Of a stretch of 64,000 bases of DNA, positions 6,738-31,940 are shown in pieces (within the stretch, counting starts at the first letter, position 1; every line of letters starts with the position of its first letter). The translations under genes and the position numbers were made by a program. Origin of the DNA: Aquibium oceanicum (lineage in GTDB: Bacteria; Pseudomonadota; Alphaproteobacteria; Rhizobiales; Rhizobiaceae); contig NZ_CP018171.1 in the NCBI RefSeq assembly GCF_001889605.1, positions 4,176,501 through 4,240,500 on the forward strand, in the 5' to 3' direction. Under the pieces are notes generated by a model, which was given only the letters and a program-made list of their open reading frames with translations, did no database searches and had not been told where the DNA came from.

Positions 6738-6775
6738 GTCAGCCTCGGTGCCTCCCGGTCATCAAGATGGCTGCT

Positions 6776-10477: not shown

Positions 10478-10672
10478 CGACCTACCCCCAACATTCAAGC
10501 GACGGCGCTGGGACGAACCGTACCCACCCGGCTCCGCCTTGACAACTGGCAAGGCCTGTTTTCTCTTCGTCACTTGGCCTTAAGCTGAACAGAGTTGCTA
10601 AACCGCCACCGCAACCGGAAGTAAAGACATGTTCAAAGTCATCATACGGTCGGCGGCTGGACCAAGCTGCAC
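10478..10672. promoter_or_regulatory. Divergent gspD-gspE promoter region
   Basis: These 195 bases lie between divergent gspD and gspE and must contain both promoters. A TTGACA occurs at 10539-10544 on the plus strand but has no good -10 at 17 bases, so I do not call a promoter. If gspD starts at 10573 the region shrinks to 99 bases. Confidence 0.4.
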
Positions 10673-12401: not shown

Positions 12402-12529
12402 CGAAACCCCTCCCGTCCTCTCGCAGATCGCCGCGCGCTCCAAGCGCGTGATCTCCACTCCTTCCGCCGGCATTGAGAATTCGGCCCGGTCTGATAAGAA
12501 CCCCTGCTCCCGGGAGGAAGAAAAGAAGT

Positions 12530-13828
12530 ATGTCCGAACTACCTGTCCTGATCGCCGGCGGCGGCATCGGCGGTCTCGCCATGGCGCTGACGCTGCACCA
12601 GATCGGCGTGCCGTGCGTCGTGTTCGAATCCGTCCGCGAACTTCGCCCGCTCGGCGTCGGCATCAACCTCCAGCCGAATGCTGTGCGCGAATTCCAGGAT
12701 CTCGGCATCGGCGAGGGCGACCTCGACCGGATCGGCCTGCCGGCGCGCGAATGGGCACTCGTCGGCCTGAACGGCAACGACATCTATTCCGAACCGCGCG
12801 GGCTGCTCGCAGGCTACGGCTGGCCGCAATACGCCGTGCATCGCGGCCTTCTTCAGATGATGCTCTACGACAAGGTGATCGAGCGCCTCGGGCCCGGCGC
12901 GGTGCGGCTCGGGAGCCGCGTGACCGGCTACCGCAACGAGCCCGACGGGACGGTGACGGCCCTGATCGAGACGTCCGGCGGTGGCGTCGAAGAGCAGAAG
13001 TGCGCTCTGGTTGTCGGCGCCGACGGCCTGCATTCGGCGGTGCGGGCACAGATGCATCCCGGCCAGCCCCCGATACGCTGGGGCGGCGCGGTGATGTGGC
13101 GCGGCACCAGCCCAGGCGTACCCATCCGCTCCGGCGCTTCCTTCGTCGGCCTCGGCACCCACCGCCACCGGCTGGTCTTCTACCCGATCTCCCCGCCCGA
13201 CGCGCGGACCGGCCTCGCCACCATCAACTGGATCGCCGAGGTGACGGTCGACAATTCCGACGGATGGAAAGAGACCGGCTGGTTCAAGCCCGTCGAGATC
13301 GACGATTTCGTCCACCATTTCGAGGGCTGGACCTACGACTGGCTGGACGTGCCGGCGCTGCTGCGCGGCGCCGAGATGGCATACGAGAACCCGATGATCG
13401 ACCGCGACCCGATCCCCACATGGCAGGACGGCCGCGTCATCCTGATCGGCGACGCCGCCCATCCGATGTATCCAACCGGCTCCAACGGCGCGAGCCAGGC
13501 CATCATGGATGCGCGGCTCCTGGGCGCTTCCTTCGTGGAGCACGGTCTCACGCCGCAGGCACTGCGCGCCTATGACGAGCGCCATTGCGGCCCGGTCTCG
13601 CAGATCGTGCTGCGCAACCGCGGCGCAGGCCCCTTCGGCCTCCTCAACATGGTGGACGAGCGCTGCGGCGGCAAATTCGAGAGTATCGACGACGTCATCC
13701 CGGCCGAGGAACGCGCCGCCTTCATGGCCGGCTACAAATCCGCCGCCGGCTTCGCGATCGAAAAACTCAACGCCGCCCCCCCGACCATTCCTCCCGGCGC
13801 GCGCGTCGAGGCAAAGGTCGACGCATAG
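12530..13828 (+). CDS. FAD-dependent monooxygenase / flavin-dependent oxidoreductase
   Basis: This 432-residue group A flavoprotein monooxygenase resembles UbiH, salicylate or hydroxynicotinate hydroxylases. It shows the FAD Rossmann motif VLIAGGGIGGLAMAL (residues 6-20), the middle VVGADGLHSAVR (DG motif) and the C-terminal GDAAHPMYPTGSNGASQAI (GD motif), which together bind FAD and NAD(P)H. Substrates in the family are usually aromatic or heteroaromatic acids. GGGAGG lies about 12 bases before ATG 12530. It is convergent with the catabolic array that ends at 13945 and could supply a hydroxylated ring to it, but that is inferred from proximity only. Confidence 0.82.
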   Translation: MSELPVLIAGGGIGGLAMALTLHQIGVPCVVFESVRELRPLGVGINLQPNAVREFQDLGIGEGDLDRIGLPAREWALVGLNGNDIYSEPRGLLAGYGWPQYAVHRGLLQMMLYDKVIERLGPGAVRLGSRVTGYRNEPDGTVTALIETSGGGVEEQKCALVVGADGLHSAVRAQMHPGQPPIRWGGAVMWRGTSPGVPIRSGASFVGLGTHRHRLVFYPISPPDARTGLATINWIAEVTVDNSDGWKETGWFKPVEIDDFVHHFEGWTYDWLDVPALLRGAEMAYENPMIDRDPIPTWQDGRVILIGDAAHPMYPTGSNGASQAIMDARLLGASFVEHGLTPQALRAYDERHCGPVSQIVLRNRGAGPFGLLNMVDERCGGKFESIDDVIPAEERAAFMAGYKSAAGFAIEKLNAAPPTIPPGARVEAKVDA

Positions 13829-13944: not shown

Positions 13945-14814
13945 TTATCCGGTTACGTCCCCTGTCCGGCCATTGCGGTATCTGAGCATTAGTATCGCCG
14001 CATCCTTTGCCATCATCCCGACTTCAATGCCGATTGAGCTCGCCTTTGAATTGACGGCTGAAAGGATGCCGTCCCGGTAGGTGCTCATCCCGTCGCCGAT
14101 CATGGCGCTGTCGGTGGAGACTGCCGCTCCGGGTATGTCCTTCGCATCGAGAACCGCGAGGCCGGAGATGCCGGAGCCCTCCTTGCAGCCACCGGCATCG
14201 CTGCACATCACGCCGGCGAGATCGAAGCGCGAGGAGTACGCCGCCGAGGTCCGGCCGAAATGCGAGCCGGCGCACACCACGTCACCCGCGTTGGCGGTGG
14301 TAATGAACGTCACCGATCCCATGGCCATGACGCGGCCGATGTCGCCCTGCCAGGCCACTTCGACGGGCCGATGAACGTCGCCGATGTCGCGCCTGCGCTC
14401 CAGCATGCGGCGCGCCGCTTCGCGGATCGTCATGCCTTTCTCGATGCCGAGCTTTGCCGCGCTGTCGTTCAGATAGCCGACGACACCATTGTCGTACATG
14501 TCCCGTCCGTCCGCGATGCGGCAGGACATCGTGGCGGCCGCCGCACCGGGTATCTCCAGCGCCTCCAGCGCATAAAGCCCGTTCACGCCGGCCGCGTCCT
14601 TGCCGGGTCCCGCCGCGTGGCAGATGACGCCTTTCGGATTCACGCGCAGCGGCCAGCGGATCGAAAGCATCCCGCAGAACGAAGCGCCGATCAGGACGTC
14701 GCCAGAATTGTTGCGCGCATCGGCGAAGGTGATGGAATCCATGACGATGATGCGCCCATCCGGCGTCTGTTCCACGATCTCCTGCGTGGAGGGTACTTCG
14801 GGTACTTCTGTCAT
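13945..14814 (-). CDS. Uncharacterised two-fold repeat protein, paralogue A
   Basis: I do not recognise this 289-residue family. It consists of two homologous halves, residues 20-139 and 160-278. Each half has G-R-(I/V)...(D/G)S(I/V)TF, a G-D-V strand, (A/G)GP/DAGG..K, a GL..L(E/D)...IPGAA turn and MY.nG/TY.dG, and ends with LGIE.GM...(E/D)AA..ML. There is no signal peptide or membrane segment, so it is probably a cytosolic enzyme. It is the last gene of the array, 19 bases after dctM, and AAGGA about 7 bases upstream supports the start. Paralogue B lies 7 kb away in the same array. The repeat suggests a pseudo-symmetric enzyme with an active site at the half interface; the reaction is unknown. 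Confidence 0.75.
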   Translation of the reverse strand: MTEVPEVPSTQEIVEQTPDGRIIVMDSITFADARNNSGDVLIGASFCGMLSIRWPLRVNPKGVICHAAGPGKDAAGVNGLYALEALEIPGAAAATMSCRIADGRDMYDNGVVGYLNDSAAKLGIEKGMTIREAARRMLERRRDIGDVHRPVEVAWQGDIGRVMAMGSVTFITTANAGDVVCAGSHFGRTSAAYSSRFDLAGVMCSDAGGCKEGSGISGLAVLDAKDIPGAAVSTDSAMIGDGMSTYRDGILSAVNSKASSIGIEVGMMAKDAAILMLRYRNGRTGDVTG

Positions 14815-14833
14815 GGAGTGGTCCTTGGAGTTG

Positions 14834-16159
14834 TCAGCGCACGCTGGCCGGGAGCCAGGTGACCAGCACGGGAAAGGCGAAAAGAATCGCGAAGATGATC
14901 AGGTCGAGCACGATGAAGGTGGTGATGCTGCGAAAGACCTTCTCCAGTTCCGCGCCCTTCGCCATGTTCGCAACGATGAAGACGTTCACCCCTACCGGCG
15001 GCGTGATCAACCCCAGTTCGATCATCTTGACCGTCAGCACCGCGTACCACAGCCCGTCATAGCCGAGCCCCGTCACCACCACCGGATAGTAGAGCGGCAC
15101 GGTGATGAGGAGGATCGACACGCCGTCCAGGAACATCCCGAGCGGAATGAGCGACAGGAGCAGCAGCAGCACGAGAAGCCGCGGCGGCAGGTCGATGCCG
15201 AGGATCCACTCGGCGAAGGCGTTCGGTACGCCGGCCGAGACGATGAAGTACGAAAAGATGCTGGCCCCGACGATGATGGCGAAGACCATACTCGTGATCG
15301 AGGCGCTGTCCCGCAGCGAGGCGAACAATCGCGACACCACGCCGGTGCCGCTCCACATCGCCGAGACGAGCATGATGAGGAACGCCGCGAAGGCGCCGAT
15401 CGCCGCGGCTTCCGTAGCCGTGATGAGGCCCGAGTAGATGCCTCCCACGATGATCACGAAGAGCAGCAGGAGCTTGAACACGCCGCCGTGCCGACTGCCA
15501 TGCCCGGTGTCGGTCTCTTCGACGGGAACGGCCGTCTTGCGGTCGAAGCCGATGCCGAGGCGCGCGCAGACGAGGATGCCGACGCCCATCACGATCGCCG
15601 AGAGGATGCCCGGCACGATGCCGGCGATCAGCAGCCGGCCGATGGACTCGTTGGTGATCACGCCGAAGAGCACTAGCGCGATGCTCGGCGGAATCAGCAC
15701 GCCCAGCGTACCGGCGGACGCGACGATGGCGGCGGCGAAGGCGGGGTTGAAGCCGTAACGGATCATCTCGCCGATGGTCAGGCGGCCGACAGTAGCTGCG
15801 GTCGCGACGCTCGATCCGCAGACGGCCGCGAAGCCGGCGCAGGTGACCACGGTCGCCACCGCCACACCGCCGCGAACCCCGCGCATCAGGCGGTTGGTGA
15901 GACGGAACAGATCGTCGGCGATGTTTCCGTGCATGGCGAAAATGCCCATCAGGATGAACATCGGCACGACGATCAGGGTGAAGGAGGACGAGGATTGGAA
16001 GGGAACGCTTCCGAGCGTCGCGCCGGCCACCGAGGTCCCGCGCAGCAGGATGAGACCGAAGGCACCGCTGGCCGCCAGCGAAAACGCCACCGGCACCTCG
16101 ATGAGGAGGAGCACGATCAGCGCGACGAAGACCAGCAGGACTATGAGGGATACATCCAT
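14834..16159 (-). CDS. dctM: TRAP transporter large permease (DctM), system 1
   Basis: This 441-residue protein is the DctM subunit of a tripartite ATP-independent periplasmic transporter, which carries organic acids with sodium or proton coupling. It has about 12 hydrophobic helices from the first residues (MDVSLIVLLVFVALIVLL). Characteristic family segments include IPPSIALVLFGV, ATEAAAIGAF and LITPPVGVNVFIVANMAKGA. It follows dctQ by 11 bases and precedes the two-fold repeat gene. Substrate cannot be read from this subunit. Confidence 0.93.
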   Translation of the reverse strand: MDVSLIVLLVFVALIVLLLIEVPVAFSLAASGAFGLILLRGTSVAGATLGSVPFQSSSSFTLIVVPMFILMGIFAMHGNIADDLFRLTNRLMRGVRGGVAVATVVTCAGFAAVCGSSVATAATVGRLTIGEMIRYGFNPAFAAAIVASAGTLGVLIPPSIALVLFGVITNESIGRLLIAGIVPGILSAIVMGVGILVCARLGIGFDRKTAVPVEETDTGHGSRHGGVFKLLLLFVIIVGGIYSGLITATEAAAIGAFAAFLIMLVSAMWSGTGVVSRLFASLRDSASITSMVFAIIVGASIFSYFIVSAGVPNAFAEWILGIDLPPRLLVLLLLLSLIPLGMFLDGVSILLITVPLYYPVVVTGLGYDGLWYAVLTVKMIELGLITPPVGVNVFIVANMAKGAELEKVFRSITTFIVLDLIIFAILFAFPVLVTWLPASVR

Positions 16160-16170
16160 GGTCTGCCCGC

Positions 16171-16698
16171 TCAGAAAGCCTGGTTTTCAGCCGGCACGGC
16201 GGGACCGTCCTCGCCGGTGCGTACCTGCCGGAACTGGTCGGCGGCACTGGGCAGAGCCTGCAGGATCAGTGCCGCCAGACCGAGCGGGATCGCGAACCGC
16301 GCGGGCCAGACCGGGACCTGCAGCAGCCCGAAACGGACCTCGCCGGTGAGGAAGGAACGCCACGCAGTCTGGCCCGTGCGCCAGGTCATCCAGGCGACGA
16401 TGCCGATCATGATGGCGATACCGATCAGGCGCAGGACCGCCGCCGCGCGGACGGGAAGGGCGGAGGTGAAGATCTTCACCGAGACATGCTCCCCCCGCCG
16501 CAGCGCATAGGCCATCCCCAGGAACACGATCGCCACCATCAGCTGCTCGACAATCTCCTGCACGCCCGCGACCGAGCGTCCGGTGAACCAGCGCATCCCC
16601 GAATCCAGGCACGTCAGCACCATCATGGACATGACGCAGGCGGACGCCAGCACGGCGAACGCGGCGGAGATCATTTCGATCGGTTTCCTCATCGGCAT
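16171..16698 (-). CDS. dctQ: TRAP transporter small permease (DctQ), system 1
   Basis: This 175-residue protein has four hydrophobic helices. It carries the DctQ family pattern (SGMRWFTGRSVAGVQEIVEQLM, AYALRRGEHVSVKIF) before the third helix. It supports DctM in the inner membrane. An alternative ATG two codons in (16692) is possible; neither has a strong ribosome site. It lies downstream of dctP across a GC-rich stem-loop. Confidence 0.9.
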   Translation of the reverse strand: MPMRKPIEMISAAFAVLASACVMSMMVLTCLDSGMRWFTGRSVAGVQEIVEQLMVAIVFLGMAYALRRGEHVSVKIFTSALPVRAAAVLRLIGIAIMIGIVAWMTWRTGQTAWRSFLTGEVRFGLLQVPVWPARFAIPLGLAALILQALPSAADQFRQVRTGEDGPAVPAENQAF

Positions 16699-16709
16699 CC
16701 AGTGAGAAA

Positions 16710-16728
16710 CGGGGCCGCGGCGGCCCCG
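16710..16728 (-). promoter_or_regulatory. dctP-dctQ intercistronic stem-loop, system 1
   Basis: In the minus-strand mRNA an 8-base stem (CGGGGCCG with CGGCCCCG) closes a 3-base loop and is followed by TTTCTC. It sits between the dctP stop and the dctQ start. It probably limits read-through or protects the dctP message, giving more binding protein than permease. Confidence 0.55.
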
Positions 16729-16752
16729 CCTCCCGTTCCTGCTTTGCTACAT

Positions 16753-17832
16753 CTAGTTCGCGTCGGCGCAGCGTTTCACGCCCGAGACGTAGGTCGCCTC
16801 GGCTTCGTGCTTGGCCAGCGTGGCCTTGTAGTCTTCGAGGAATTCGGCCGCGGGCGCGCCGCGCGCGGACGCCTCCTCGATCCACTTCTTCTCGATGCTG
16901 TCGCCGACCGCCTCACGAATGGTTTCGGTTTCTTCCGGCGAGAGCACGGAGACGGACCCGCCCGACTCCTTGATCGTCCGGCACACCTCGTCCTCGGTCT
17001 GCGTCAGGATCTCGATCACCTTGGAGGTGTATTCCGCGTTCACTTCGTTGATGATCGATTTCAGGTCGTCCGGCATCCCGTCCCAGAGCGACTTGGTGAT
17101 TGGCGTCGCCGCGAAGACGTAGTTGCCGGTCCCGGTGGCGAACGTGTACGGCGCCACCTCGTGCAGTTTCAGGGCCGGAACGACCTCGAAGGCGAAGCCG
17201 GAATAGCCGTCCAGCGTGCCGCGCAGCAGCGCCTCGTAGATCTCGGGCGCGGCGATCGCCACCGGGTTGGCGCCGATCGCCTGGAGAACCTGGTTGACGT
17301 AGCCGAGGCCGCGGATCGACTTGCCCTTCATGCCTTCCAGCGTGGTATCGTTCTCGCGCATGCCGACGATGTTCTCCGACAGCGGATTGAAGAACATCAC
17401 GTGGACGCCCTTGCTCTCCCACTCGTCGCGGAATGCCTCGTTGCGCTCGTAGAGTTCGGTGAACGTCAGCATCTGGGCTTCGGCGTTCGACGTCATGAAC
17501 GGCACGCCGACGACGCTCGAGAGCGGCAGTTCGGCGGGGTGGTAGGCGTTGGCGACGTAGCCGAGGCTGGCGCGGCCGTCGGCGACCCCCTGCAGGATGT
17601 CGGTCGCCGGCAGCAGGGAGCCTTGGTAGAAGAACTCGACGTGGACACGGCCGTCTGTGCGCTTTTCGACCTCCTGCGCCCACCATTCCTGTGCACGGCT
17701 CTGCGCCGCACCCTTGCCGATGTAGCTCGCGAACTGGAGATCGTATTCCGCCGCCAGAGCTGGAGCGGCAAACGTCATCGTCGCCGCGGTTCCGGCAAGC
17801 AGGCCGGCGAACAACATCTTCATTTTGGTCAT
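16753..17832 (-). CDS. dctP: TRAP substrate-binding protein (DctP), system 1
   Basis: This 359-residue periplasmic solute receptor has a Sec signal peptide (MTKMKMLFAGLLAGTAATMT, cleavage near AAPALAA|EYD). The DctP fold shows VEFFYQGSL, the SIRGLGYVN ligand-binding Arg strand and LDGYSGFAFEVV. Ligands of the family are carboxylates held by that conserved Arg. ATG 17832 is preferred over the adjacent ATG 17835 because GGGAGG is 5 bases from it and only 2 from the other. It lies 38 bases after the lyase gene and is followed by dctQM. Confidence 0.9.
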   Translation of the reverse strand: MTKMKMLFAGLLAGTAATMTFAAPALAAEYDLQFASYIGKGAAQSRAQEWWAQEVEKRTDGRVHVEFFYQGSLLPATDILQGVADGRASLGYVANAYHPAELPLSSVVGVPFMTSNAEAQMLTFTELYERNEAFRDEWESKGVHVMFFNPLSENIVGMRENDTTLEGMKGKSIRGLGYVNQVLQAIGANPVAIAAPEIYEALLRGTLDGYSGFAFEVVPALKLHEVAPYTFATGTGNYVFAATPITKSLWDGMPDDLKSIINEVNAEYTSKVIEILTQTEDEVCRTIKESGGSVSVLSPEETETIREAVGDSIEKKWIEEASARGAPAAEFLEDYKATLAKHEAEATYVSGVKRCADAN

Positions 17833-17870
17833 CATATCCTCCCTTTCTTCGTTGACGGCGCTGCGTAGCA

Positions 17871-18650
17871 TCACGCGCCCTGTGGATCGGAATAGTCCGA
17901 ATTCTCCTCGACGAGGTTCCAGATCGCCTGTGCGGACGGTCGGTTCAGTTCCTCGAAGACATGGCCGATCAGGCCGATGGTGCGGGCGACCAGCCCGATG
18001 CCGCGCACCGCGCGCCAGTCGATGCCGATGTCGGACGCGATGGCCCCCACCGCGGCGACCGCGTTGAAGGTCAGGTGCTTGCCGCGCCGGTCGCAAGCGG
18101 CCTTGTGGATGGCGAGCATCAGGTCGGTATGAGCGCGCGGCGCGCCGAGTTCGCGCTGCATGGCGAGCAGCTTCTCCGAACGCGGGTCGACGGGATGGTG
18201 CGGATGCCCCAGCCCCGGGATACGCCTGCCCTGTTGCTGGTACTTGTCGACGATCTTTTCGGCCTTTTCGGCGGGGCTGCCTTCGAACTCCGCGGCTTCG
18301 ACCTGAAGGATACGGGCGACGTTGCTGGTCGGCCCGACGAAGACGTCCCCGGCGCCCAGAAGCCCGCTCGCGACCGCGCCCTGAAAGGATTCCGGCGCGC
18401 CGAAGATCGTCAGCCGGGCGGCGATGACGCTGGGCATCATGCCGTGCTCGGCGATGGCGACGATCATGGCGTTGAGCAGCTTGTTCTCGGCCTCTTCCGG
18501 GAGACGACCGGTGACTTCGAGGAAGAACAGCGACGCGGCGTCGATATTGCCCATCAGGTCGTCGACCAGGTTTCGACCCCGGACGGTGATCGTGTCGACC
18601 GTCAGAGTGCCCATGCTGGTTTCGATGCGGGGCTGCGGCCTGGGGCTCAT
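17871..18650 (-). CDS. Citrate-synthase-fold protein, citryl-CoA lyase-like
   Basis: This 259-residue protein covers only the core of the citrate synthase fold, about 60% of the usual length. Two catalytic-type histidines are seen: EHGMMPSVIAAR near residue 68, and PGLGHPHHPVDPRSEKL, matching the 'GHP...DPR' of citrate synthases. Where synthases have the catalytic Asp in NVD, this protein reads FNAVAAVGAI, so that Asp is absent. Short relatives are annotated as citryl-CoA lyases. It overlaps the CoA-transferase gene by 4 bases, so it probably cleaves a CoA-thioester made by that enzyme, releasing acetyl-CoA and a keto acid. The exact substrate is unknown. Confidence 0.72.
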   Translation of the reverse strand: MSPRPQPRIETSMGTLTVDTITVRGRNLVDDLMGNIDAASLFFLEVTGRLPEEAENKLLNAMIVAIAEHGMMPSVIAARLTIFGAPESFQGAVASGLLGAGDVFVGPTSNVARILQVEAAEFEGSPAEKAEKIVDKYQQQGRRIPGLGHPHHPVDPRSEKLLAMQRELGAPRAHTDLMLAIHKAACDRRGKHLTFNAVAAVGAIASDIGIDWRAVRGIGLVARTIGLIGHVFEELNRPSAQAIWNLVEENSDYSDPQGA

Positions 18651-20461
18651 CGGGTGGCTCCTTCCGCGCGCTCGGCGCTGTAGTCGAGAAAATCGTTGCG
18701 GATGTCGAAGAGACGAAGCTTCAGAAGGTCCTCCCTCCGCGGCGGCTCGGCCGCCGTCAGGCGGTCGCTGACCACCAGATCCCAGCCGCATTCCGAACGG
18801 ATGTGTTCGATCGTCTCGTCCTTCGTCTGGCCAGCGACGGGGATGTAGCGGGTGAGCGCGAAGCGACCCGCTTCCTTCTCGTAAACGCCGAGGTCGGTGA
18901 CGAGCGTGGAGACGTTCTTTCCGGGACTGGTGACATAAGGGAGCTTGTCGACCAGCCGGTGGCGCGACTGCTGCGTGACCGCGATCGTGTCGGCCGCGCC
19001 GGAGGTGATGTCGTTGGCGCCGCCCGAACCGAGGAGGAAGCGCCCGTCGCCCGTCTGGGTCGAGTTGATGTTGCCGGCATTGTCGATCTGCCCGGCGCCG
19101 ATGATGGCGATGCAGTTGTTGTGGCGGCCGGCGATATAGAGCCCGAGCACGGCCTCCACACCGGTCATGCTCTTGCACGTGGGCAGGTTTCGGTTCGAGA
19201 AGATGAAGGGCTCGCCGGCCTTCGGCATATACCCGTAGAGACCGATCTCGGCCACGAGTTCGGCCGGTATGCCGTCTTCGTGCTGGAGCTTGGTGACCGC
19301 TAGCCAGGCGGCGAGATTGGCGAGCCCGACGCCCGCCTCCACGATCGTGCGTCCTTCGTCGCGAACCTTCGCCTCGACAGCGCGCGCCGCCTCCACGACC
19401 ATCAGTTCGCGGCTGTCATGGCCCTCGATTTCGGTCAGGCGCTTCAGGGTCGCGGGCGAGACGTCGTCCATCCAGGCATCTGCTGACGCCCTGCCCCGCA
19501 GAGCGTCGAGACGGTCTACGCCGAGCTTGGCGACGTAGTCCTCGTGGCTGTCGACGCCGAGTATCCACTCCCTCACCCACTGGTCGAAGAGCTCGGGTTT
19601 CTTTGAGGCCGCGCGGATTTCGGCGAACGCCTGGAAATCCTCGACATAGGCCGGCACGCCCAGCCCAGCGGGCGAGTAGATCGCAAAGGGGTGACAGCCG
19701 AACGGCGCCTCGGAGACGCTGAGCACGCGGTAGGCAGGGATCTTCACCAGGTGCGCGTGGCGCCGCACGACATCCGTCGACACGATCCGCTCCACGGTCG
19801 CCACCACGCCCTTGCTTGCCGCGAATGCGGAGATGTCGCCCTCGCCGAAAGGCGGCGACAGGATGATGTTGCCATCGGTATCGGCTGCCAGCCCGTGGAC
19901 GAAGGTGACGTCGGGGATGAGTGGCTTGACGACGCCGATCTTCTGGCCCGTGCCGAAAGGATCGTCGATCTCGGCATAGCAGTCGTTTTCGGCCAGAGAG
20001 CTTCCGCCCCACGAGCGGGTGGGGGCGAAGGGAAAGCCATAGGCGCCGGCGGCGAGCCGTTGCGACAGGACCAGCAGTGAGTGGTTCTCGACCTCGACGT
20101 CGCCGCTGTCGATCGCCTTCTGGAACAGGCGGTTCGGACCCGGCGTGGGATAGTTCTCGCCGACGAAGGACACGATCAGGCGCTTGGCGATCCGCTCCGT
20201 GACCAGCGAGGCCTGGTTGGCGACGAGGCCGGCGCTGACGATCGTAAAGCCGGGATCGCGCCCCGCGAAGACGCGGACCAACGCGTTGCTGGCCGCCATC
20301 GGCCGGCCTTCCGAATAGGCGAAATGCAGCATCATGCCGGGCTCGACATGCGCTCGGATGGCGTCGTCGAGCGGCATGACCTTGGAGCGGCCGAAATGGC
20401 CGTCCGCCGGCTCGGCGAACATCGCCCTCAGCGCCTCGCGATCCATGGGGCGGGCGCTCAT
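18647..20461 (-). CDS. Fused-subunit CoA-transferase (family I, glutaconate-type)
   Basis: This 604-residue protein fuses the alpha- and beta-like halves of a family I CoA-transferase. The N-terminal half (20-320) has the alpha fold with FTIVSAGLVANQASLV. The C-terminal half (about 335-604) has AEIGLYGYMP, where the Glu is the expected CoA-accepting residue, and GAGQIDNAGNINST followed by GSGGANDI, a beta-subunit glycine loop. It moves CoA from a donor such as acetyl- or succinyl-CoA to a carboxylic acid. It is coupled by 4-base overlaps to the amidohydrolase upstream and the lyase downstream, so the three are probably one pathway block. Confidence 0.85.
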   Translation of the reverse strand: MSARPMDREALRAMFAEPADGHFGRSKVMPLDDAIRAHVEPGMMLHFAYSEGRPMAASNALVRVFAGRDPGFTIVSAGLVANQASLVTERIAKRLIVSFVGENYPTPGPNRLFQKAIDSGDVEVENHSLLVLSQRLAAGAYGFPFAPTRSWGGSSLAENDCYAEIDDPFGTGQKIGVVKPLIPDVTFVHGLAADTDGNIILSPPFGEGDISAFAASKGVVATVERIVSTDVVRRHAHLVKIPAYRVLSVSEAPFGCHPFAIYSPAGLGVPAYVEDFQAFAEIRAASKKPELFDQWVREWILGVDSHEDYVAKLGVDRLDALRGRASADAWMDDVSPATLKRLTEIEGHDSRELMVVEAARAVEAKVRDEGRTIVEAGVGLANLAAWLAVTKLQHEDGIPAELVAEIGLYGYMPKAGEPFIFSNRNLPTCKSMTGVEAVLGLYIAGRHNNCIAIIGAGQIDNAGNINSTQTGDGRFLLGSGGANDITSGAADTIAVTQQSRHRLVDKLPYVTSPGKNVSTLVTDLGVYEKEAGRFALTRYIPVAGQTKDETIEHIRSECGWDLVVSDRLTAAEPPRREDLLKLRLFDIRNDFLDYSAERAEGATR

Positions 20462-21330
20462 TTCGCGGCCCCCGGCTTGAGGGACTTGAAGACCTTCTCC
20501 GCCGCGCCGCGCATCAGCAGCGCGCGGCTTTCCGGCTTCAGGTCGATCGCGGCGACCTGCTCCATGCTGTCCTTGTGACGCACGACGGGGAAATCGGTAC
20601 CCCACAGGACCTTTCCCTTGCCCCGGCTGTCGAGGAAGCGGACGAGCTTCGGATCCCAGTATTTGGGCGCGTGTGCGCCGCAGCCTATGTAAAGATTGGG
20701 GTGCTTCCAGGCCATCGCGATCAGTTCCTCCACCCAGGGCCAGCCGGTGTGCGAGGCGACGATGCGCAGGTCCTCGAAGTAGAGCGCTACATCGTCGAGG
20801 TGGATCGGCCGAGTCATCTCCGAGGGCATTTTCTCGGCCGAGTGGCCGCTCTGTACGATGACGGGAATGTCGAGTTCCACGCACTTGGCGTAGATCGGAT
20901 AAAGCTCGCGATGGTTCAGCGGGATGCCCCACCCGTTGCAGTGGATGTGGGCGCCTTCGAAGCCCCATTCGCGCACGGCGATCTCGAGTTGCCGCACGGC
21001 CCCCATCCCGAGCGAAATGTCGATGCCGAAGAGCCCCCCGACTCGACCCGGGCAGGCCGCCATCAACGCGCGGACGTCGTCCGCCTCGACCGACAGGATC
21101 GGCGCGCGACGCTTGTAGCTCTGCATCTTGAAGCTCGGAACGTAGACCTTCTCGATCCGGCACTCGTCGAGCAGCCGGACGAATGCGTCGGGTTCGTAAC
21201 CCTTGATGCGTTCGTCCATGCTCCACCACTTGACGACGGGGGCGAGTTCCTCGTTCTCCGTGTACATCTTGCGCAGCCCGTCGGGCGTGAAGATGTTGGT
21301 CCAGTAGTCGATGGCCATTGGCTGGGTCAT
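20458..21330 (-). CDS. Amidohydrolase-2 family protein lacking HxH
   Basis: This 290-residue protein is a metal-dependent hydrolase or decarboxylase-type TIM barrel (amidohydrolase 2, the family of ACMSD and gamma-resorcylate decarboxylase). Later motifs are clear: GGLFGID, FEGAHIHCNGWGIPLN, PVIVQSGHS, RIVASHTGWPWVEE and VLWGTDFPV. The usual N-terminal IDxHxH strand reads AIDYWTNIFTP, so two metal-ligand histidines are missing. It may bind metal differently or be non-hydrolytic. ATG 21330 is chosen; ATG 21318 is also open. It overlaps the CoA-transferase start by 4 bases. Confidence 0.8.
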   Translation of the reverse strand: MTQPMAIDYWTNIFTPDGLRKMYTENEELAPVVKWWSMDERIKGYEPDAFVRLLDECRIEKVYVPSFKMQSYKRRAPILSVEADDVRALMAACPGRVGGLFGIDISLGMGAVRQLEIAVREWGFEGAHIHCNGWGIPLNHRELYPIYAKCVELDIPVIVQSGHSAEKMPSEMTRPIHLDDVALYFEDLRIVASHTGWPWVEELIAMAWKHPNLYIGCGAHAPKYWDPKLVRFLDSRGKGKVLWGTDFPVVRHKDSMEQVAAIDLKPESRALLMRGAAEKVFKSLKPGAAK

Positions 21331-21379
21331 GCGATGCGGTCTCGGCGTCCTGTCTTCGTTCGGTTCGGCACGACGCCGG

Positions 21380-21709
21380 TCACTTCTTCTCGTCCACGGT
21401 GAGCTGGTCCCCGAGCGCTTCGATGCCGTCGATGAAGGCGGTGAAGCCGGCGGTGAGCGATGCGAGCGCGAGCGCCTCCACGACCTCCTTGTCGGTGGCG
21501 CCGTGGTACATCGCCTCGCTGCCATGCGTACGGGTGGAGGAGCCGTAGCGAATGGCCGCCGAGCAGGCCATCAGGATCAACTCCTTGTACTTGCGCGGGA
21601 TTTCCGACTCCGTCCCGAGCGCATAGCCGGTGTAGCCGCTGATTCGCGTTTCGAGTTCGGGGTCGATCGTCTTGATGACCTCGCGCCAGTTGTGCTTGCG
21701 TTCGTACAT
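21380..21709 (-). CDS. Carboxymuconolactone decarboxylase-like protein 1
   Basis: This 109-residue single-domain protein of the AhpD/CMD fold has the pattern KYKELILMACSAAIRYGSSTRTHGSEAMYHGATDKEVVEAL. The CxxC redox pair of AhpD peroxidases is absent, so a decarboxylase or lactone-acting role, or a ring-cleavage partner role, is more likely than peroxidase activity. It lies between the two-fold repeat paralogue B (11 bases upstream) and the amidohydrolase. Confidence 0.8.
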   Translation of the reverse strand: MYERKHNWREVIKTIDPELETRISGYTGYALGTESEIPRKYKELILMACSAAIRYGSSTRTHGSEAMYHGATDKEVVEALALASLTAGFTAFIDGIEALGDQLTVDEKK

Positions 21710-21721
21710 TCGAAAACCTCC

Positions 21722-22570
21722 CTAACCGTTCTTGCCCGACGCGTGCCGAAGCATCAGCCGCGCGGCCTCCGTCGCCGGCTGGTCCTTTTCGATGCCGATC
21801 GAGGCCGCCGTTTCGTTGAGAGCCGAGATTCGGCCCTGGAAATAGGTGCTGCGGGCGTCGCCGACGCGCGCCGTGGCGCAGCCGACCGCCGCCGCGGGCA
21901 TGCCGATCCCGTCTAGTCGCGCCAGTCCGGCGATCCCGGACTGGTCCTTCGACGGTCCAGCATCGTTGGTGATGACGCCGGCCAGCCGGTAGTCCATGTC
22001 CTCGACATAATCGGCCATGGCGCGGGCGGCGTGGGAGCCCATGCACAGGACCCCGCCGGCTATGCGGGAATCCGCGTACTTCACGGTATCGAGAGCATAG
22101 ACGCTTCCCAATTCGTCCGCGTGCACCCTGATCTGCCGTCGAGCAGGCGCCCGGAAGGCGGGGTTGCGGTCGAGCAGCATCTGCGCAGCCTCGCGCACCG
22201 GCATGCCTTCGGAAATCCCCATCAACATGGCGGCCTGGTTGGCGCGCGAGACCGTGCCGTTCTCGTACATGTCTCTGCCATCGGAAATGCGGGCGGAGTT
22301 GCCGTCCACCGTGGCGCCGGGAATAAGGTAGGCATCGAGAAGTTTGAGGCCGCTCATGCCGCCTTCCCCTAGGCCGACGCCGGCGTCGTGCACGAAGACG
22401 CCGCGCGGTCGGCACCAGACCATCAGCTGGGTGGCGCATGGGGCGCCGTGCGAGCCACAGATCAGGACGTCGCTGACGTCATTGCGTTCGTCCACGTGGC
22501 CGACCGAATCCATCGCGACGATCCTGCCGCGCGGACCCTCGACCATTACGTGCTGGGGCCAGTCCGTCAT
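21722..22570 (-). CDS. Uncharacterised two-fold repeat protein, paralogue B
   Basis: This 282-residue protein is a paralogue of the protein at 13945-14814 and shares its two-half architecture (about residues 15-133 and 155-274). Its half-repeats keep GSH (40 and 179 areas), HDAG/NDAG, GL..LD...IPGA or MPAAAV, SARISDGRDMYENG and the GI...EAA..ML end most clearly. Glu, Asp and His in these motifs could form a metal or acid-binding site. Start 22570 overlaps the ligase stop by 4 bases. Two diverged members in one array suggest two related steps or a heteromer. The function is unknown. Confidence 0.75.
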   Translation of the reverse strand: MTDWPQHVMVEGPRGRIVAMDSVGHVDERNDVSDVLICGSHGAPCATQLMVWCRPRGVFVHDAGVGLGEGGMSGLKLLDAYLIPGATVDGNSARISDGRDMYENGTVSRANQAAMLMGISEGMPVREAAQMLLDRNPAFRAPARRQIRVHADELGSVYALDTVKYADSRIAGGVLCMGSHAARAMADYVEDMDYRLAGVITNDAGPSKDQSGIAGLARLDGIGMPAAAVGCATARVGDARSTYFQGRISALNETAASIGIEKDQPATEAARLMLRHASGKNG

Positions 22571-24279
22571 TGCTGCGTCTCCGGTTGCAGGACGAGCCCG
22601 GCGCCGGCGTCGGCCTCCACGAGGGCGGCGGTGCGGGCGGTCAGGTCCTTCTTCTTCAGTTTTCCGGCCGGCGTCATCGGCAGGTCGCCAGGCTTGTAGA
22701 AGAACACCCGGCGCGGCGCCTTCTGCGAGGTCATGGTCCGCCGGCAGAACTCCACGATCTCGCCCGGATCGATCCTGGTGCCCTCCGCGCGGGCGATCCA
22801 GGCCGCCGGAACGTTGCCGAGGCGCCGGTCGGCCACCGGGACGATGAAGGCCTCCTTCACGCCCGGCAGCTGCTCGAGCTTGTTCTCGATCTCGGCGGGA
22901 TAGATGTTGAAGCCGCCGACGGTGAACATGTCGTCCACCCGGCCGGTGATGTAGAGGAACCCCTCCTTGTCGAAGAAGCCGACGTCGCCGGTGCGGAACC
23001 AGCCGTCCTCGGTGATGGCCGCCGCCGTCTTGTCGGGCATCCCGTAGTAGCCGCGACCGACGCAGGAGCCGGGATAGAGATCGCCCAGGATGATCTCGCC
23101 CTGCGCGCCCGCGGGCATGTCCTCGAACGTGTCGGAGTTCACCACCCGCACCACGGCACTCTTCAGCGGCTTCCCCACGGATTTCAGGCGCTTGTCGCGC
23201 GGATGGTGGCGGGTGGAGACTGTCGAGAGGCCCCCGCACTCGCTCAGGCCCCAGGCTTGCATGATGTTTTCGGCGCCGAGGACCTCGAGGATCTCGCGCA
23301 TGGTGGTATCGGTCAGCGGTGCGCCGGCGACGTGGCCGCCACGCACGGAGGAGAGGTCGCGCTGCGTGACGTCCGGGTGGTCGAGCATCATGCGGAACAT
23401 GCTCGGCGTGCCGGGGATGTAGGTGACCTTCTGCTCCTCGATCAGCCGCAACGACTGCGCCGCGTCGAACTGCTCGGTGATCACCACCTTGGCGCCGTTG
23501 CGGATACCGAGTGCTGCGCCATAGAGGCCGCCGAAATTGGTGAACAGCGGCACGTGGCAGAGGATGACGTCGTCGGGGCCGAGTTCAGCCATCTGCGACC
23601 ACTGGCCGATGGTGGTGAGGTTCGTGACGTGCATCGACATGCCGCCCTTGGGAAAGCCGGTGGTTCCCGAGGTGTACATGATGTTCATCACGTCGAAGGG
23701 CGAGACGGAGTTCTGCCGCTTGAGAAGCTCGTAGTCCGAGACCTCGCTGTCGCCACGGGCGGAGACATCGTCGAAGCTGTGGCGGCCCGGCAGGTCCTCG
23801 CCCTCACCGGACAGGATCACCCGCTTCAACGCAGGAAATTTGGCGCTGGCGAAGGCGCCGCGGTCGGCGGTTCGCAATTCGGGGATGGTCTCCTCCGCGA
23901 TTGCCAGCGCGTCGATCTTGCCGAGGAACCTGTCGGCCATGATCAGCGTCGAAACGTGCGCCTGGTCGAGCGCGTATTCCAGTTCCGACTTGCGGTAGTA
24001 GCTGTAGAGCGGCAGGAGCGTCGCACCGACCTTGTAGATGGCGAACTGGCAGACGACCCAGTCGATGCTGTTGGTCATCCAGATCGCAGCCACGTCGTCC
24101 TTGCGCACGCCCAGCGCCATCAGCCCCTTGGCGAAGCGGTCCACCGCGGCGCCGAACTCGGCATAGGTCATCGTCCGGTCTTCGAAGACGAACAGCGTCT
24201 TCTCGCCGTGGCGCTCGACCTGGCGATCGAGCACATCGGCCCAGGTCGTGAGGGCATCGACGTACCATTGATCTCTCAT
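22567..24279 (-). CDS. AMP-dependent acyl-CoA synthetase / CoA ligase
   Basis: This 570-residue ANL-superfamily enzyme activates a carboxylic acid to its CoA thioester through an acyl-adenylate. The P-loop YTSGTTGFPKG is at 202-212. Motifs QAWGLSECGG, DGWFRTGDVGFFD and GRVDDMFTVGGFNIYPAEIE follow, and the C-terminal catalytic Lys is in PAGKLKKKDL. It resembles the CaiC/fatty-acid and aromatic-acid ligases rather than acetyl-CoA synthetase. Start 24279 has GGGAG 7 bases upstream; a longer frame exists but lacks support. It lies between TRAP system 2 and paralogue B, fitting activation of the imported acid. Confidence 0.88.
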   Translation of the reverse strand: MRDQWYVDALTTWADVLDRQVERHGEKTLFVFEDRTMTYAEFGAAVDRFAKGLMALGVRKDDVAAIWMTNSIDWVVCQFAIYKVGATLLPLYSYYRKSELEYALDQAHVSTLIMADRFLGKIDALAIAEETIPELRTADRGAFASAKFPALKRVILSGEGEDLPGRHSFDDVSARGDSEVSDYELLKRQNSVSPFDVMNIMYTSGTTGFPKGGMSMHVTNLTTIGQWSQMAELGPDDVILCHVPLFTNFGGLYGAALGIRNGAKVVITEQFDAAQSLRLIEEQKVTYIPGTPSMFRMMLDHPDVTQRDLSSVRGGHVAGAPLTDTTMREILEVLGAENIMQAWGLSECGGLSTVSTRHHPRDKRLKSVGKPLKSAVVRVVNSDTFEDMPAGAQGEIILGDLYPGSCVGRGYYGMPDKTAAAITEDGWFRTGDVGFFDKEGFLYITGRVDDMFTVGGFNIYPAEIENKLEQLPGVKEAFIVPVADRRLGNVPAAWIARAEGTRIDPGEIVEFCRRTMTSQKAPRRVFFYKPGDLPMTPAGKLKKKDLTARTAALVEADAGAGLVLQPETQQ

Positions 24280-24299: not shown

Positions 24300-25586
24300 T
24301 CATTTCGGCATGGTGGACGGCAACCAAAGCGTGATCGCCGGAAAGAGATAGAGGAGCACGAGGGCAAACATCGACACTGCCACGAAGGGCAGGATCTCGC
24401 GGAGAATCTCTTCGACCCGGACGTCCAGCACGCGCGCGGCCACGAAGAGGTTCACCCCGACCGGCGGCGTGAACTGCCCGATCGCCACTGCGACCGCGAC
24501 GAAGACGCCGAACCATGTCAGGTCGATCCCCTGCGCGCGCACCGCCGGGATCAGGAGCGGCACGAGGATCAGGTAGATCGAGGCGCCGTCGATGAAGAGC
24601 CCGGCGATGAGGAGCACGATCGCGGCGAGCAGGAAGACCTGCCATTCGGCACTCACCGACGAGGAGAAATCCGCCACCCAGCGCACCACGGTTCCATCGA
24701 TCGTGATGACCCAGGAGAAGAGCGAGGCGCAGGCGACAATGAAAAGCACCACGGCAGTGTCGATCATCGTCACGCGGGCGATCTCGGGCAGGTGCCGGAA
24801 ACCGATCTCGCGGTAGATGAAGATGCCGACCAGCAGACCGTAGACGACAGCGACACCCGCCGCCTCGGTCGGCGTGAATATGCCCAGATAGATCCCGCCG
24901 ATGATGACCAGCGGCGCCAGGAGGCCGAATACGCTCTGCGCGAACGCGCCCTTCACGGCCGAGAACGAGAAGCGGTCGCGCGGCGGATCATAAGAGCGGC
25001 GCACGCAGATGACCCAGGCGCAGATCGCGATCAGCACGCCCATAAGCATACCCGGCAGGATGCCGGCCACGAACATGCGGCCGATCGAGACGCCTGGAAC
25101 GGCGACCCCATAGAGGATGAAGGCGATGCTCGGCGGTACCACCAGGCCAAGCGCTCCGCCGGCCGAGATGACGGACGCAGCAAAACCCCTCGAGTAGCCA
25201 CGCTCCCGCATGATCGGCCCAAGCGTCGCGCCGAGCGCGGCGGTGTCCGCCGGTCCGCTCCCCGACAGCCCGCCGAGAAGCACCGAGACGCCGCTGGTCA
25301 CGATCGCGGTCTTGCCGCGTACCCGGCCGACCAGCGAATCGACCAGACCGAAAAGGCGCCGCATGATGCCGGACCGGTCGAAGACGTTGCCGGCGAGGAT
25401 GAAGAAGGGAATGGCGAGCAGTTCGATCTTCTGCAGCGACGAGAACAGGATCGAGGCGACGAAGCCCAGGTTTCCCTGGATCAGGAAGCCGACCACCAGC
25501 GCCGAGGCGCCGAGCGCGATGGCGACGGGAACGTTGATGGCGATGAAGGCAGCCAGCAGGACGATGAGCAAGACCGTGTCGTTCAT
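24300..25586 (-). CDS. dctM: TRAP transporter large permease (DctM), system 2
   Basis: This 428-residue protein has about 12 hydrophobic helices with DctM segments PPSIAFILYGVAVPG, FTPTEAAGVAVVYG and GQFTPPVGVNLFVAARV. The start overlaps dctQ by 4 bases. It is 20 bases ahead of the acyl-CoA ligase, so uptake and activation are probably co-expressed. Confidence 0.93.
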   Translation of the reverse strand: MNDTVLLIVLLAAFIAINVPVAIALGASALVVGFLIQGNLGFVASILFSSLQKIELLAIPFFILAGNVFDRSGIMRRLFGLVDSLVGRVRGKTAIVTSGVSVLLGGLSGSGPADTAALGATLGPIMRERGYSRGFAASVISAGGALGLVVPPSIAFILYGVAVPGVSIGRMFVAGILPGMLMGVLIAICAWVICVRRSYDPPRDRFSFSAVKGAFAQSVFGLLAPLVIIGGIYLGIFTPTEAAGVAVVYGLLVGIFIYREIGFRHLPEIARVTMIDTAVVLFIVACASLFSWVITIDGTVVRWVADFSSSVSAEWQVFLLAAIVLLIAGLFIDGASIYLILVPLLIPAVRAQGIDLTWFGVFVAVAVAIGQFTPPVGVNLFVAARVLDVRVEEILREILPFVAVSMFALVLLYLFPAITLWLPSTMPK

Positions 25587-26062
25587 TGCCGCCCGCCTGC
25601 GAAATGGCCGCGCAGGACGCGCCAGAGCATGAGCGCGGCTCCCGCCGGCATGAAGACGGAGAACAGCCACAGCGGCATGTCGAGCAGCCCCGAGGTCAAT
25701 CCCAACCGCAGCTGGCCCGCAACGAGAAGGCAGCCGCTGTAGACGACACCGAGTAGGAAGCCCGCGATGACGATGAGCCGCAACAGCTCGCAGGCGCTGC
25801 GCAGGCTGGACGGCAGCAGCGGTACGAAGACCGACACGCCGAGATGCGCCTTGGCGCGTTCGGCGGTCGCGATGCCGAGCCAGTAGAAGGCGACGCTTCC
25901 CAGGATCATGAGTTCGAAGAGTTCGCCGATGGCGTGATTGAAGACATAGCGTGCGGCGATGCTGATCGTGTTGAGGGCGAGCAGGACCAGCAGCGCGGCT
26001 TCGAGCACCCTGTGCTCGAAGACCACTGCGATCGGGACGCGCGGCTGTTGTTGCTCTGCCAT
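25583..26062 (-). CDS. dctQ: TRAP transporter small permease (DctQ), system 2
   Basis: This 159-residue protein has four hydrophobic helices, with the DctQ pattern ISIAARYVFNHAIGELFELM and ATAERAKAHLGVSVF. It partners the following dctM, with which it overlaps by 4 bases. It is separated from dctP by a GC-rich stem-loop. Confidence 0.9.
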   Translation of the reverse strand: MAEQQQPRVPIAVVFEHRVLEAALLVLLALNTISIAARYVFNHAIGELFELMILGSVAFYWLGIATAERAKAHLGVSVFVPLLPSSLRSACELLRLIVIAGFLLGVVYSGCLLVAGQLRLGLTSGLLDMPLWLFSVFMPAGAALMLWRVLRGHFAGGRQ

Positions 26063-26082
26063 GACGATCTCGCGGGAGGTAT

Positions 26083-26102
26083 GGCGCGGCCGGAGCCGCG
26101 CC
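26083..26102 (-). promoter_or_regulatory. dctP-dctQ intercistronic stem-loop, system 2
   Basis: The arms GGCGCGGC and GCCGCGCC form an 8-base perfect stem around a 4-base loop, in the gap between dctP and dctQ. It is placed like the stem-loop in system 1. No T-run follows, so it is more likely an mRNA-end stabiliser than a terminator. Confidence 0.5.
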
Positions 26103-26111
26103 GGTTCCGCC

Positions 26112-27128
26112 CTAGTTTCCCATCGCCGATTTCAGGAGATCCGCGCCGATGACCGGCTCCCACTCCGCATAGATCGGCGCCATCTTCTCGCGGAAGGCGG
26201 CGATCTGTTCGGGTGTCAGCGTGACGACCTCCAGCGACGTCCCGATTTCCTCGAGAAGCTTCGTGTCGGCCGCCGACTGCTCAGCGCGATGCCAGGAGGC
26301 GGCATCCTTCGCCGCGATCGTGAAGATCTCCTGCTCCTGAGGGCTCAGGTCGTCCCACAGCGCCTGGTTCGTCAGGATGCCGATCGCGTCCGCCGAATAG
26401 TTCCAGATCGTCATGTAGTCCTGGACCTCGTGGAAATTGGACACGTAGATCAGGCTGATCGGATTCTCCTGGCCGTCGACGACACCCTGCTGGAGAGCGC
26501 CGTAGAGCTCGCCGAAACTCGTCGGCACGGGATTGACCCCCATGGCCTTGAAGACGTCCTGGTAGAGCTTGAGACCGGGGACACGTAGCGTCAGCCCATC
26601 GAGGTCCTCAGGCTTGGTGACGGGGCGCTCGTTGTTAGTGAGCTGGCGGAAGCCGCTGGTCGAGAACCCGCCGAGCGGCTTCACACCCTTTTCCGACAAT
26701 CCGTCCCAAACCTCTTGTCCAGGACCGTCGATGAGCGCGAACAGCTCCTCTCCGGAGGGTGCGATCCACGGCATCGAGAAGAGGCTGAAGCGCGGATCCA
26801 CGATGCTCAGGATGATGCTGGAGTGGAAGGTGAAGTCGACGGTGCCGTTCTGCAGCAGCTCGAATTCGGCGACCTGGTTGCCGTTCGAAAGCTGGCCGTC
26901 GGGATAGACGGTGATCTCGATCTTGCCGCCGCTCGCCTCCTCGACATTGTCCGCGAAGCGCTGGGCGGCCTGGGTCCACGGAGAGTTAACCCCCACGGAC
27001 ATCGCGAAACGCAAGCTGCGTTCCTCGATCCCGTCCTGCGTCATCGCCGAACCCACGCCGAGCGCGAGAACGCCGGCCGCGACAAGGATCTTCATTGCGG
27101 CTGCCGCCGCGTGCAATCGTCCAGTCAT
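26112..27128 (-). CDS. dctP: TRAP substrate-binding protein (DctP), system 2
   Basis: This 338-residue periplasmic receptor has a signal peptide (residues 1-29) and DctP motifs: ITVYPDGQLSNGNQ, the carboxylate-binding strand LDGLTLRVPGLKLYQDVFK, and GALQQGVVDGQENPI. GGAGG lies 8 bases before ATG 27128; a longer frame to 27311 is not supported. It is the first transporter gene after tetR, separated from it by a strong stem-loop. Confidence 0.9.
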   Translation of the reverse strand: MTGRLHAAAAAMKILVAAGVLALGVGSAMTQDGIEERSLRFAMSVGVNSPWTQAAQRFADNVEEASGGKIEITVYPDGQLSNGNQVAEFELLQNGTVDFTFHSSIILSIVDPRFSLFSMPWIAPSGEELFALIDGPGQEVWDGLSEKGVKPLGGFSTSGFRQLTNNERPVTKPEDLDGLTLRVPGLKLYQDVFKAMGVNPVPTSFGELYGALQQGVVDGQENPISLIYVSNFHEVQDYMTIWNYSADAIGILTNQALWDDLSPQEQEIFTIAAKDAASWHRAEQSAADTKLLEEIGTSLEVVTLTPEQIAAFREKMAPIYAEWEPVIGADLLKSAMGN

Positions 27129-27993: not shown

Positions 27994-28410
27994 CTAGAGA
28001 AGCCCGCGATGCCCCTCGTAATCCGGGCTTTCGTCGAGGCCGCGCGCCTTGATTACTGCGTTGGCCGAAGCCAGCGCCGTCGCCACGGCCGGAAACCCGA
28101 CATAGGGCAAGGTCTGGACGATGACTTCCTCGATCTCGGCGAGTGTCAGGCCGTTGTTGAGCGCGATGTTCATGTGAATGCCGAACTCGTTCGGCTGCTT
28201 CAGTGCGATCATCACCGCCATCGAGACGAGGCTGCGCTGCTTCCGATCGAGGCCCTCGCGCGTCCAGATCTCGCCGAAGGCCTGGTCGATCGCATAGCCC
28301 GCGACATCGGCGCCGAACGTCTTCGATTCGGCCGAGGCGATGAGCCGCTCGGCCATCTCGTCTCCCATCATCTGTCTGATGACGGCGGTTCCGTCTTTCC
28401 TGCGTTGCAT
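27994..28410 (-). CDS. Carboxymuconolactone decarboxylase-like protein 2
   Basis: This 138-residue protein resembles gamma-carboxymuconolactone decarboxylase (PcaC). It has WTREGLDRKQRSLVSMAVMI, then the PcaC-type segment PNEFGIHMNIALNNGLTLAE and YVGFPAVATALA. PcaC decarboxylates a muconolactone in the protocatechuate branch of aromatic degradation. No other pca genes are in the window, so the real substrate may differ. It lies between LysR and tetR in the same orientation and is the second CMD-fold protein of the array. Confidence 0.85.
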   Translation of the reverse strand: MQRRKDGTAVIRQMMGDEMAERLIASAESKTFGADVAGYAIDQAFGEIWTREGLDRKQRSLVSMAVMIALKQPNEFGIHMNIALNNGLTLAEIEEVIVQTLPYVGFPAVATALASANAVIKARGLDESPDYEGHRGLL

Positions 28411-28518
28411 GTCGTCCTCACCTGTCGGGTTGCTGAGAAGGACAGCCTAGCCCATCCCGCGGATGGCGACGTTCGGATTCGCGGAAGCTTGCCTGCGGCG
28501 CGCCTGAACGAACCGCGG

Positions 28519-31934: not shown

Positions 31935-31940
31935 GGATCG

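Follow-up and report, generated by a model that had tools for sequence, protein, structure and literature searches.

The question raised by this locus is what two related proteins, which credibly match no characterised family, do among genes for the uptake and coenzyme A (CoA)-dependent breakdown of organic acids. Proteins A (289 amino acids, aa) and B (282 aa) are encoded in a 64,000-nucleotide stretch of Aquibium oceanicum DNA (positions 4,176,501 to 4,240,500 of contig NZ_CP018171.1), hereafter the window. They are tentatively read here as paralogues within an unnamed, patchily distributed catabolic family of oxo-acid enzymes with a doubled DUF1805-like domain. At both places the plus strand is interrupted by stops, and both genes lie on the minus strand (Table 1). 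A and B are 42% identical over nearly their full length (E 7e-64), in agreement with a preliminary description, made from the sequence alone, which had taken them for paralogues each composed of two homologous halves. All six BLASTP pairings among the four halves were significant (A1/A2, 39% identity over 137 aa, E 2.5e-28; B1/B2, 35% over 121 aa, E 1.4e-18; the remaining four, E 1e-21 to 1e-34), and local HHalign comparison of the N-half with the C-half in a 42-row alignment gave a probability of 100 (E 1.8e-45). This alignment was drawn from 48 proteins, with the exclusion of L011 and L018, which duplicate A and B, of L013 and L040, whose starts are uncertain, and of L017 and L045, which are short; several of its N-terminal ends were guessed, and the row for B′, the counterpart of B in locus L001, extends upstream of its start. 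The internal duplication is far beyond chance, and it is virtually certain that A and B form a family with this architecture.

With A as query, searches detected relatives in 7 of 61 near genomes and in 31 of the 289 class genomes, and a profile search found a family member in 6 of 398 genomes of the phylum (the window's genome is counted in all three). Relatives were also present in 13 plasmid records (five alphaproteobacterial, three from Rhodococcus and five haloarchaeal), being labelled "hypothetical protein" in all 12 that are annotated; the family thus spans bacteria of two phyla and haloarchaea. No relative was found in three scans of viral contigs. Four relatives have a single domain (128–146 aa as trimmed) with GSHGG, FNDA and SARIG. 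The basic unit is therefore a single domain that presumably dimerises, A and B being covalent pseudo-dimers, and this bears out the pseudo-two-fold design proposed earlier. In a tree of 102 halves, in which two rows had very long branches, the N and C halves of the A/B clade clustered together (support 97/93). A single clade of all N halves was not rejected by the approximately unbiased test (p 0.566), and the tree with that clade scored slightly better, so no claim is made that duplication occurred separately in the A/B and main clades.

Residue conservation was read from an alignment of 49 full-length members, together with the four single-domain ones, in the numbering of A. The motifs GSHGG, NDAG and SARIGD are common to both groups, and S45 and D206 are invariant (49/49 each). 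Conservation is nearly as high at H46 (43/49), D67 (42/49), R99 (45/49) and N116 (48/49) in the N-half and at S184 (47/49), H185 (48/49), R238 (43/49), S252 (48/49) and N255 (48/49) in the C-half. The motifs noticed in the four half-repeats are thus real across the full-length members, with departures in A itself that are considered below. In the model of the B C-half, S34-H35, N57-D58 and R90-D93 are placed at or just after the predicted strands 29–32, 53–57 and 81–84. Since the three motifs follow three successive predicted strands, they probably line one polar pocket in each half, and their residues are probably placed like the pocket residues of alpha/beta enzymes.

Two homologous halves, with a conserved His and Asp in each in most members, are also what would be expected of a pseudo-symmetric two-base racemase or epimerase, in which each half would give one acid/base (His or Asp) to a site between the halves; single-domain members could pair as dimers for the same end. 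Asp/Glu racemases, which are duplicated, and diaminopimelate epimerase follow this general two-half design. The A/B family differs from them in having no sequence match to either: among Pfam matches at E up to 10, from a scan whose filters discard most weak matches, no racemase or epimerase family of the Asp/Glu or diaminopimelate type was present. Moreover, A has lost the His and Asp of its N-half and kept those of its C-half, and the clusters L076 and L079 already contain a racemase-family gene of another kind. A racemase is for these reasons considered rather improbable.

The family had been described as unrecognised. This holds in so far as no credible match to a characterised family was found in Pfam, in NCBIfam (for A or B) or by PDB sequence and profile searches; it has to be amended in that DUF1805 (Pfam PF08827, COG3377) and the solved protein 1qw2 (TA1206) are its nearest known counterparts. 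Whole-protein DUF1805 scores were 34.9 bits for A and 30.0 for B, barely above the cut-off of 29.5; the best stretches covered only positions 28–64 and 33–63 of the 64 in the model, and single stretches in a genome scan reached 22.3 bits, below the cut-off. The IMS model (PF00817) matched at the same stretch with 20.9 and 22.1 bits, below its cut-off of 23.2 and over only 28–29 residues, and at E 0.1 DUF1805 and IMS each matched 33 of the 42 members. The DUF1805 link is thus unproven by sequence alone. Profile comparison with DUF1805 gave a probability of 69.5 over only 36 columns, with a score of 33 versus at most 17.6 in 100 column shuffles; among the six phylum genomes positive for the family by profile, the DUF1805 model flagged only that of the window. 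A relation to IMS, and with it to Y-family DNA polymerases, was set aside because the matches span only a short stretch. Also rejected were RecA, whose matches in the PDB profile search were sums of 6-bit stretches in multi-copy fusions, and acetophenone carboxylase (14.6 bits against a cut-off of 1250).

Structure prediction pointed the same way. The model of whole A (four alignment rows; predicted local distance difference test score, pLDDT, 77.5; predicted template modelling score, pTM, 0.63) had 1qw2 as its best solved match, with Z 8.5 over 93 aligned residues (target 102; root-mean-square deviation, rmsd, 2.8; next Z 4.8) and with residues from both halves taking part. For the B C-half (eight alignment rows, pLDDT 85.9, pTM 0.84), 1qw2 was again first, with Z 8.2 over 87 residues (rmsd 3.2; next Z 6.4). 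These Z values barely exceed the level of common arrangements, and Foldseek placed 1qw2 at rank 1 for the half model with a non-significant E of 0.27. No close structural relative besides 1qw2 was found among the entries of the Foldseek list, the only ones that the aligner re-ranked, so others may exist. 1QW2 is listed under DUF1805 (PMC9425974), and the DUF1805 protein L087 matches the 1qw2 sequence (E 2.3e-11). By these models the fold of the A and B domains is very probably DUF1805-like, and a deep relation to DUF1805, which rests on the weak Pfam matches and the predicted fold, is likely. In a low-confidence global alignment, GSHGG stands opposite GSKG of DUF1805 and the NDAG segment is absent from DUF1805; SARIGD is absent from both genuine DUF1805 members examined. 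DUF1805 is one short domain of about 100 residues, whereas the A/B family is a fused double in 49 of 53 members. Each chain would accordingly be a pseudo-dimer, in which one predicted alpha/beta domain of about 125 residues is used twice.

The genes found near family members were surveyed in 50 loci of 6–21 kb, the window and the later loci L099–L103 being left out; the counts are raw and the loci non-independent (three come from one genus, and genomes G127, G255 and G341 have two each). E1-alpha and E1-beta genes were each present in 22 of the 50 loci and acetolactate-synthase-like genes in 21, so that 26 contained at least one of these three thiamine-diphosphate-type genes, while DctM and DctP of tripartite ATP-independent periplasmic (TRAP) transporters occurred in 13 and 11. 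Among the 289 genomes of the class, the family was present in 23 of the 25 with an acetolactate-synthase-like orthologue (accepted at E up to 1e-110) versus 8 of the 264 without one (Fisher p 3.6e-25, uncorrected for kinship or for the choice of a query that was picked as a frequent family neighbour in some of the same genomes). Both surveys used the same genome handles and were taken as one sample, with at most eight family and four acetolactate-synthase-like candidates scored per genome, so misses are possible. The 23 genomes cover 15 family codes, and in 18 of them the two genes are at most 10 kb apart; the other two genomes with the orthologue, G113 (87% complete) and G147, had no family member even by profile. 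The strongest statistical link of the family is to the thiamine-diphosphate-type enzymes. The TRAP and CoA context stressed in the preliminary description stands as a catabolic setting, but as one among several.

The acetolactate-synthase-like genes, exemplified by L067:228-1961 (minus strand), belong to a distinct thiamine-diphosphate clade with GMGGFQLLPFYDA near the start; BbmA (8x3x, 8xod) is the nearest solved sequence, and their scores are below the NCBIfam cut-offs shown. Among the papers listed for BbmA none concerned the A/B family, and a literature search for a TRAP/acetolactate-synthase cluster found no paper. L076 and L079 each have two E1-alpha/E1-beta pairs, which flank the acetolactate-synthase-like gene on both sides. 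Both also have a gene belonging to one cluster, matched in L079 to the Asp/Glu-racemase family.

Other partners were found in other settings. All five haloarchaeal plasmid records have RuBisCO-like and four-carbon-acid-sugar-kinase genes immediately after the family gene (the L008 annotation covers just part of the RuBisCO-like gene), and in the alphaproteobacterial locus L098 such a pair and a PGDH_C protein gene adjoin it. The kinase and RuBisCO-like genes of these clusters are related to those of OiaK and OiaX, enzymes of the 3-oxo-isoapionate pathway; they are neighbours of the A/B family and not relatives of it. The pathway therefore resembles that for 3-oxo-isoapionate, perhaps with another substrate; 3-oxo-isoapionate is an intermediate of apiose breakdown (PMC6302742). 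In Rhodococcus, OB-fold, ligase and thiolase genes are near the family gene; in Aminobacter, HMG-CoA-lyase, RraA and ring-cleavage-type genes; and in L064, an indolepyruvate-oxidoreductase-like gene. One single-domain gene is beside a TctC receptor gene and another beside a CoA-transferase gene. Most of these settings share oxo-acid chemistry, that is, acetohydroxy acids, 2-oxo acids, 3-oxo acids and their CoA esters.

The tight co-occurrence with thiamine-diphosphate-type enzymes would also suit a non-catalytic partner, a protein that binds, senses or assembles with these and other oxo-acid enzymes. The DUF1805 entry, in the part of PMC9425974 available, gives only a structure and a linked gene, with no activity, which fits such a role. 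We give it little credence, because the polar residues are strongly conserved at strand ends and the family also occurs without those enzymes, in the CoA-enzyme and RuBisCO-like settings. The preferred reading is instead that the family probably consists of enzymes of oxo-acid catabolism, most likely without a bound cofactor. In each half, the GSHGG, NDAG and SARIGD pocket would act by acid–base chemistry on an oxo-acid intermediate, which to judge from the neighbours would most likely be a 2-hydroxy-3-oxo or 2-oxo acid; the neighbours would likewise favour isomerisation or tautomerisation first and C–C cleavage second. A cofactor-free acid–base enzyme for an oxo-acid intermediate would account for a gene that keeps company with such different partner sets. 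Isomerase or tautomerase activity in particular, though preferred among the specific activities, is less likely than not.

Acetohydroxy acids are the products of acetolactate synthase, and 3-oxo-isoapionate shares their carbon pattern. Ketol-acid isomerisation is familiar chiefly as one half of what ketol-acid reductoisomerase catalyses. On these grounds the family might even represent a novel cofactor-free enzyme class that acts on acetohydroxy-acid-like (2-hydroxy-3-oxo) acids, perhaps a stand-alone ketol-acid isomerase; this is a long shot which, if true, would be the first function tied to the DUF1805-like fold. The ties to specific enzyme sets make the function of the family directly testable, and knowing it would give DUF1805 its first lead as well; the structure of this conserved fold was released in 2004, and the available parts of the DUF1805 literature examined (PMC9425974, PMC10050317) leave it unexplained.

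The window itself contains one of the CoA settings. From 27128 to 13945, a co-directional 13-kb array with short gaps or overlaps encodes two TRAP importers and CoA enzymes in the order DctP-DctQ-DctM, acyl-CoA ligase, B, carboxymuconolactone-decarboxylase-family protein, amidohydrolase-2, CoA-transferase, citryl-CoA-lyase-like protein, DctP-DctQ-DctM and A (Table 1). The stop of DctM is 19 bases from A, and the start codon of B overlaps the stop of the CoA-ligase gene, itself 3′ of the second TRAP operon; the setting agrees with the preliminary description, in which each copy is downstream of a TRAP transporter. The array is kept in L001, from the Rhodobacteraceae metagenome-assembled genome HLUCCA12, with the same order and 54–84% identity per gene; that sequence begins within DctM and continues with the ligase, B′, the carboxymuconolactone-decarboxylase-family, amidohydrolase, CoA-transferase and citryl-CoA-lyase-like genes, TRAP and A′. 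An organic acid would be imported by TRAP, activated with CoA and cleaved by the citryl-CoA-lyase-like enzyme, A and B acting at two of the steps in between. The suggestion that A and B form a heteromer is weakened, at least as an obligate one, by their separate occurrence in the class survey and the tree of halves: G255 has an A-type without a B-type gene, and G127 and G341 have a B-type without an A-type (these are draft assemblies of 120–290 contigs).

The presence of a citryl-CoA-lyase-like gene in the array also bears on whether A and B could themselves be C–C or C–O lyases, or hydrolases, of an oxo acid or diketone, with the motif Ser, His and Asp as catalytic residues. These are the best conserved polar residues, and aldolase- and lyase-type genes are among the neighbours. 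Clusters such as the present one, however, usually have lyases of their own, and neither the Pfam scan nor the PDB profile search revealed resemblance to any known lyase or hydrolase; this alternative is judged unlikely.

Several observations weigh against reading the family as enzymes of oxo-acid catabolism. A deviates at three conserved positions (F46, A67 and M238); A′ has the same changes in the N-half but retains the Arg of SARIGD. With the GSH His and the NDAG Asp missing from its N-half, A probably has a reaction or substrate different from that of B. Two of the motif loops in the models are of low confidence, and in the half model so are residues 61–64, which come just after N57-D58. 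As for the neighbours, 24 of the 50 loci are without any of the three thiamine-diphosphate-type genes, the window's own genome has no acetolactate-synthase-like orthologue in the class survey, and the family gene of L007 adjoins plasmid replication genes, which suggest no pathway. The E1-alpha, E1-beta and acetolactate-synthase-like proteins match thiamine-diphosphate-enzyme models below the curated cut-offs. In L098 the kinase reached 536 bits against OiaK and the RuBisCO-like protein 453 bits against OiaX, both short of the 700 cut-off.

Table 1. Proteins A and B, their halves and the other members of the array, in window coordinates.
Feature	Positions	Strand	Basis or remark
Protein A, 289 aa, two-domain member encoded by the final gene of the array	13945..14814	-	Reading frame and BLASTP
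A N-half, residues ~19-140	14395..14760	-	Ser45 retained, F46 for GSH His, A67 for NDAG Asp; boundaries approximate
A C-half, residues ~158-283	13966..14343	-	S184, H185, D206 retained, M238 for SARIGD Arg; boundaries approximate
DctM, TRAP large permease, immediately 5′ of A	14834..16159	-	TIGR00786, PF06808
TRAP small permease DctQ	16171..16698	-	Placed by position and size; L001 gene in the corresponding place 54% identical
TRAP substrate-binding protein DctP	16753..17835	-	PF03480; ends from L001 comparison
Citryl-CoA-lyase-like protein	17871..18650	-	NF004868, 292 bits (cut-off 193); ends from L001 comparison
CoA-transferase, single 604-aa chain	18647..20461	-	PF01144, weak pcaJ_scoB; ends from L001 comparison
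Amidohydrolase-2 family protein	20458..21330	-	PF04909; ends from L001 comparison
Carboxymuconolactone-decarboxylase-family protein, directly downstream of B	21380..21709	-	PF02627
Protein B, 282 aa, paralogue of A	21722..22570	-	Reading frame and BLASTP
B N-half, residues ~13-136	22163..22534	-	Boundaries approximate
B C-half, residues ~154-278	21737..22111	-	Half used for the structure model; boundaries approximate
Acyl-CoA ligase (AMP-binding)	22567..24279	-	PF00501; ends from L001 comparison
Second TRAP operon, whole	24300..27128	-	DctP, DctQ and DctM below
Second-operon DctP	26112-27128	-	PF03480
Second-operon DctQ	25583-26062	-	Position only
Second-operon DctM	24300-25586	-	Similarity to L001 DctM genes

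The CoA-transferase of the array resembles fused subunits, with the PF01144 match in its N-terminal part and a weak match to 3-oxoacid CoA-transferase subunit B in its C-terminal part. A flavin adenine dinucleotide (FAD)-dependent monooxygenase of the PRK07538 group (12473-13828, plus strand) is placed outside the array, since its gene is convergent with A on the other strand. Beyond the array, the region 27994-32966 contains a PcaC-like carboxymuconolactone-decarboxylase-family gene and, as judged by eye, a LysR-type regulator and a third TRAP operon. At 4607-12364, genes resembling those of a type II secretion system (GspC to GspE and a prepilin peptidase) were recognised, also by eye.

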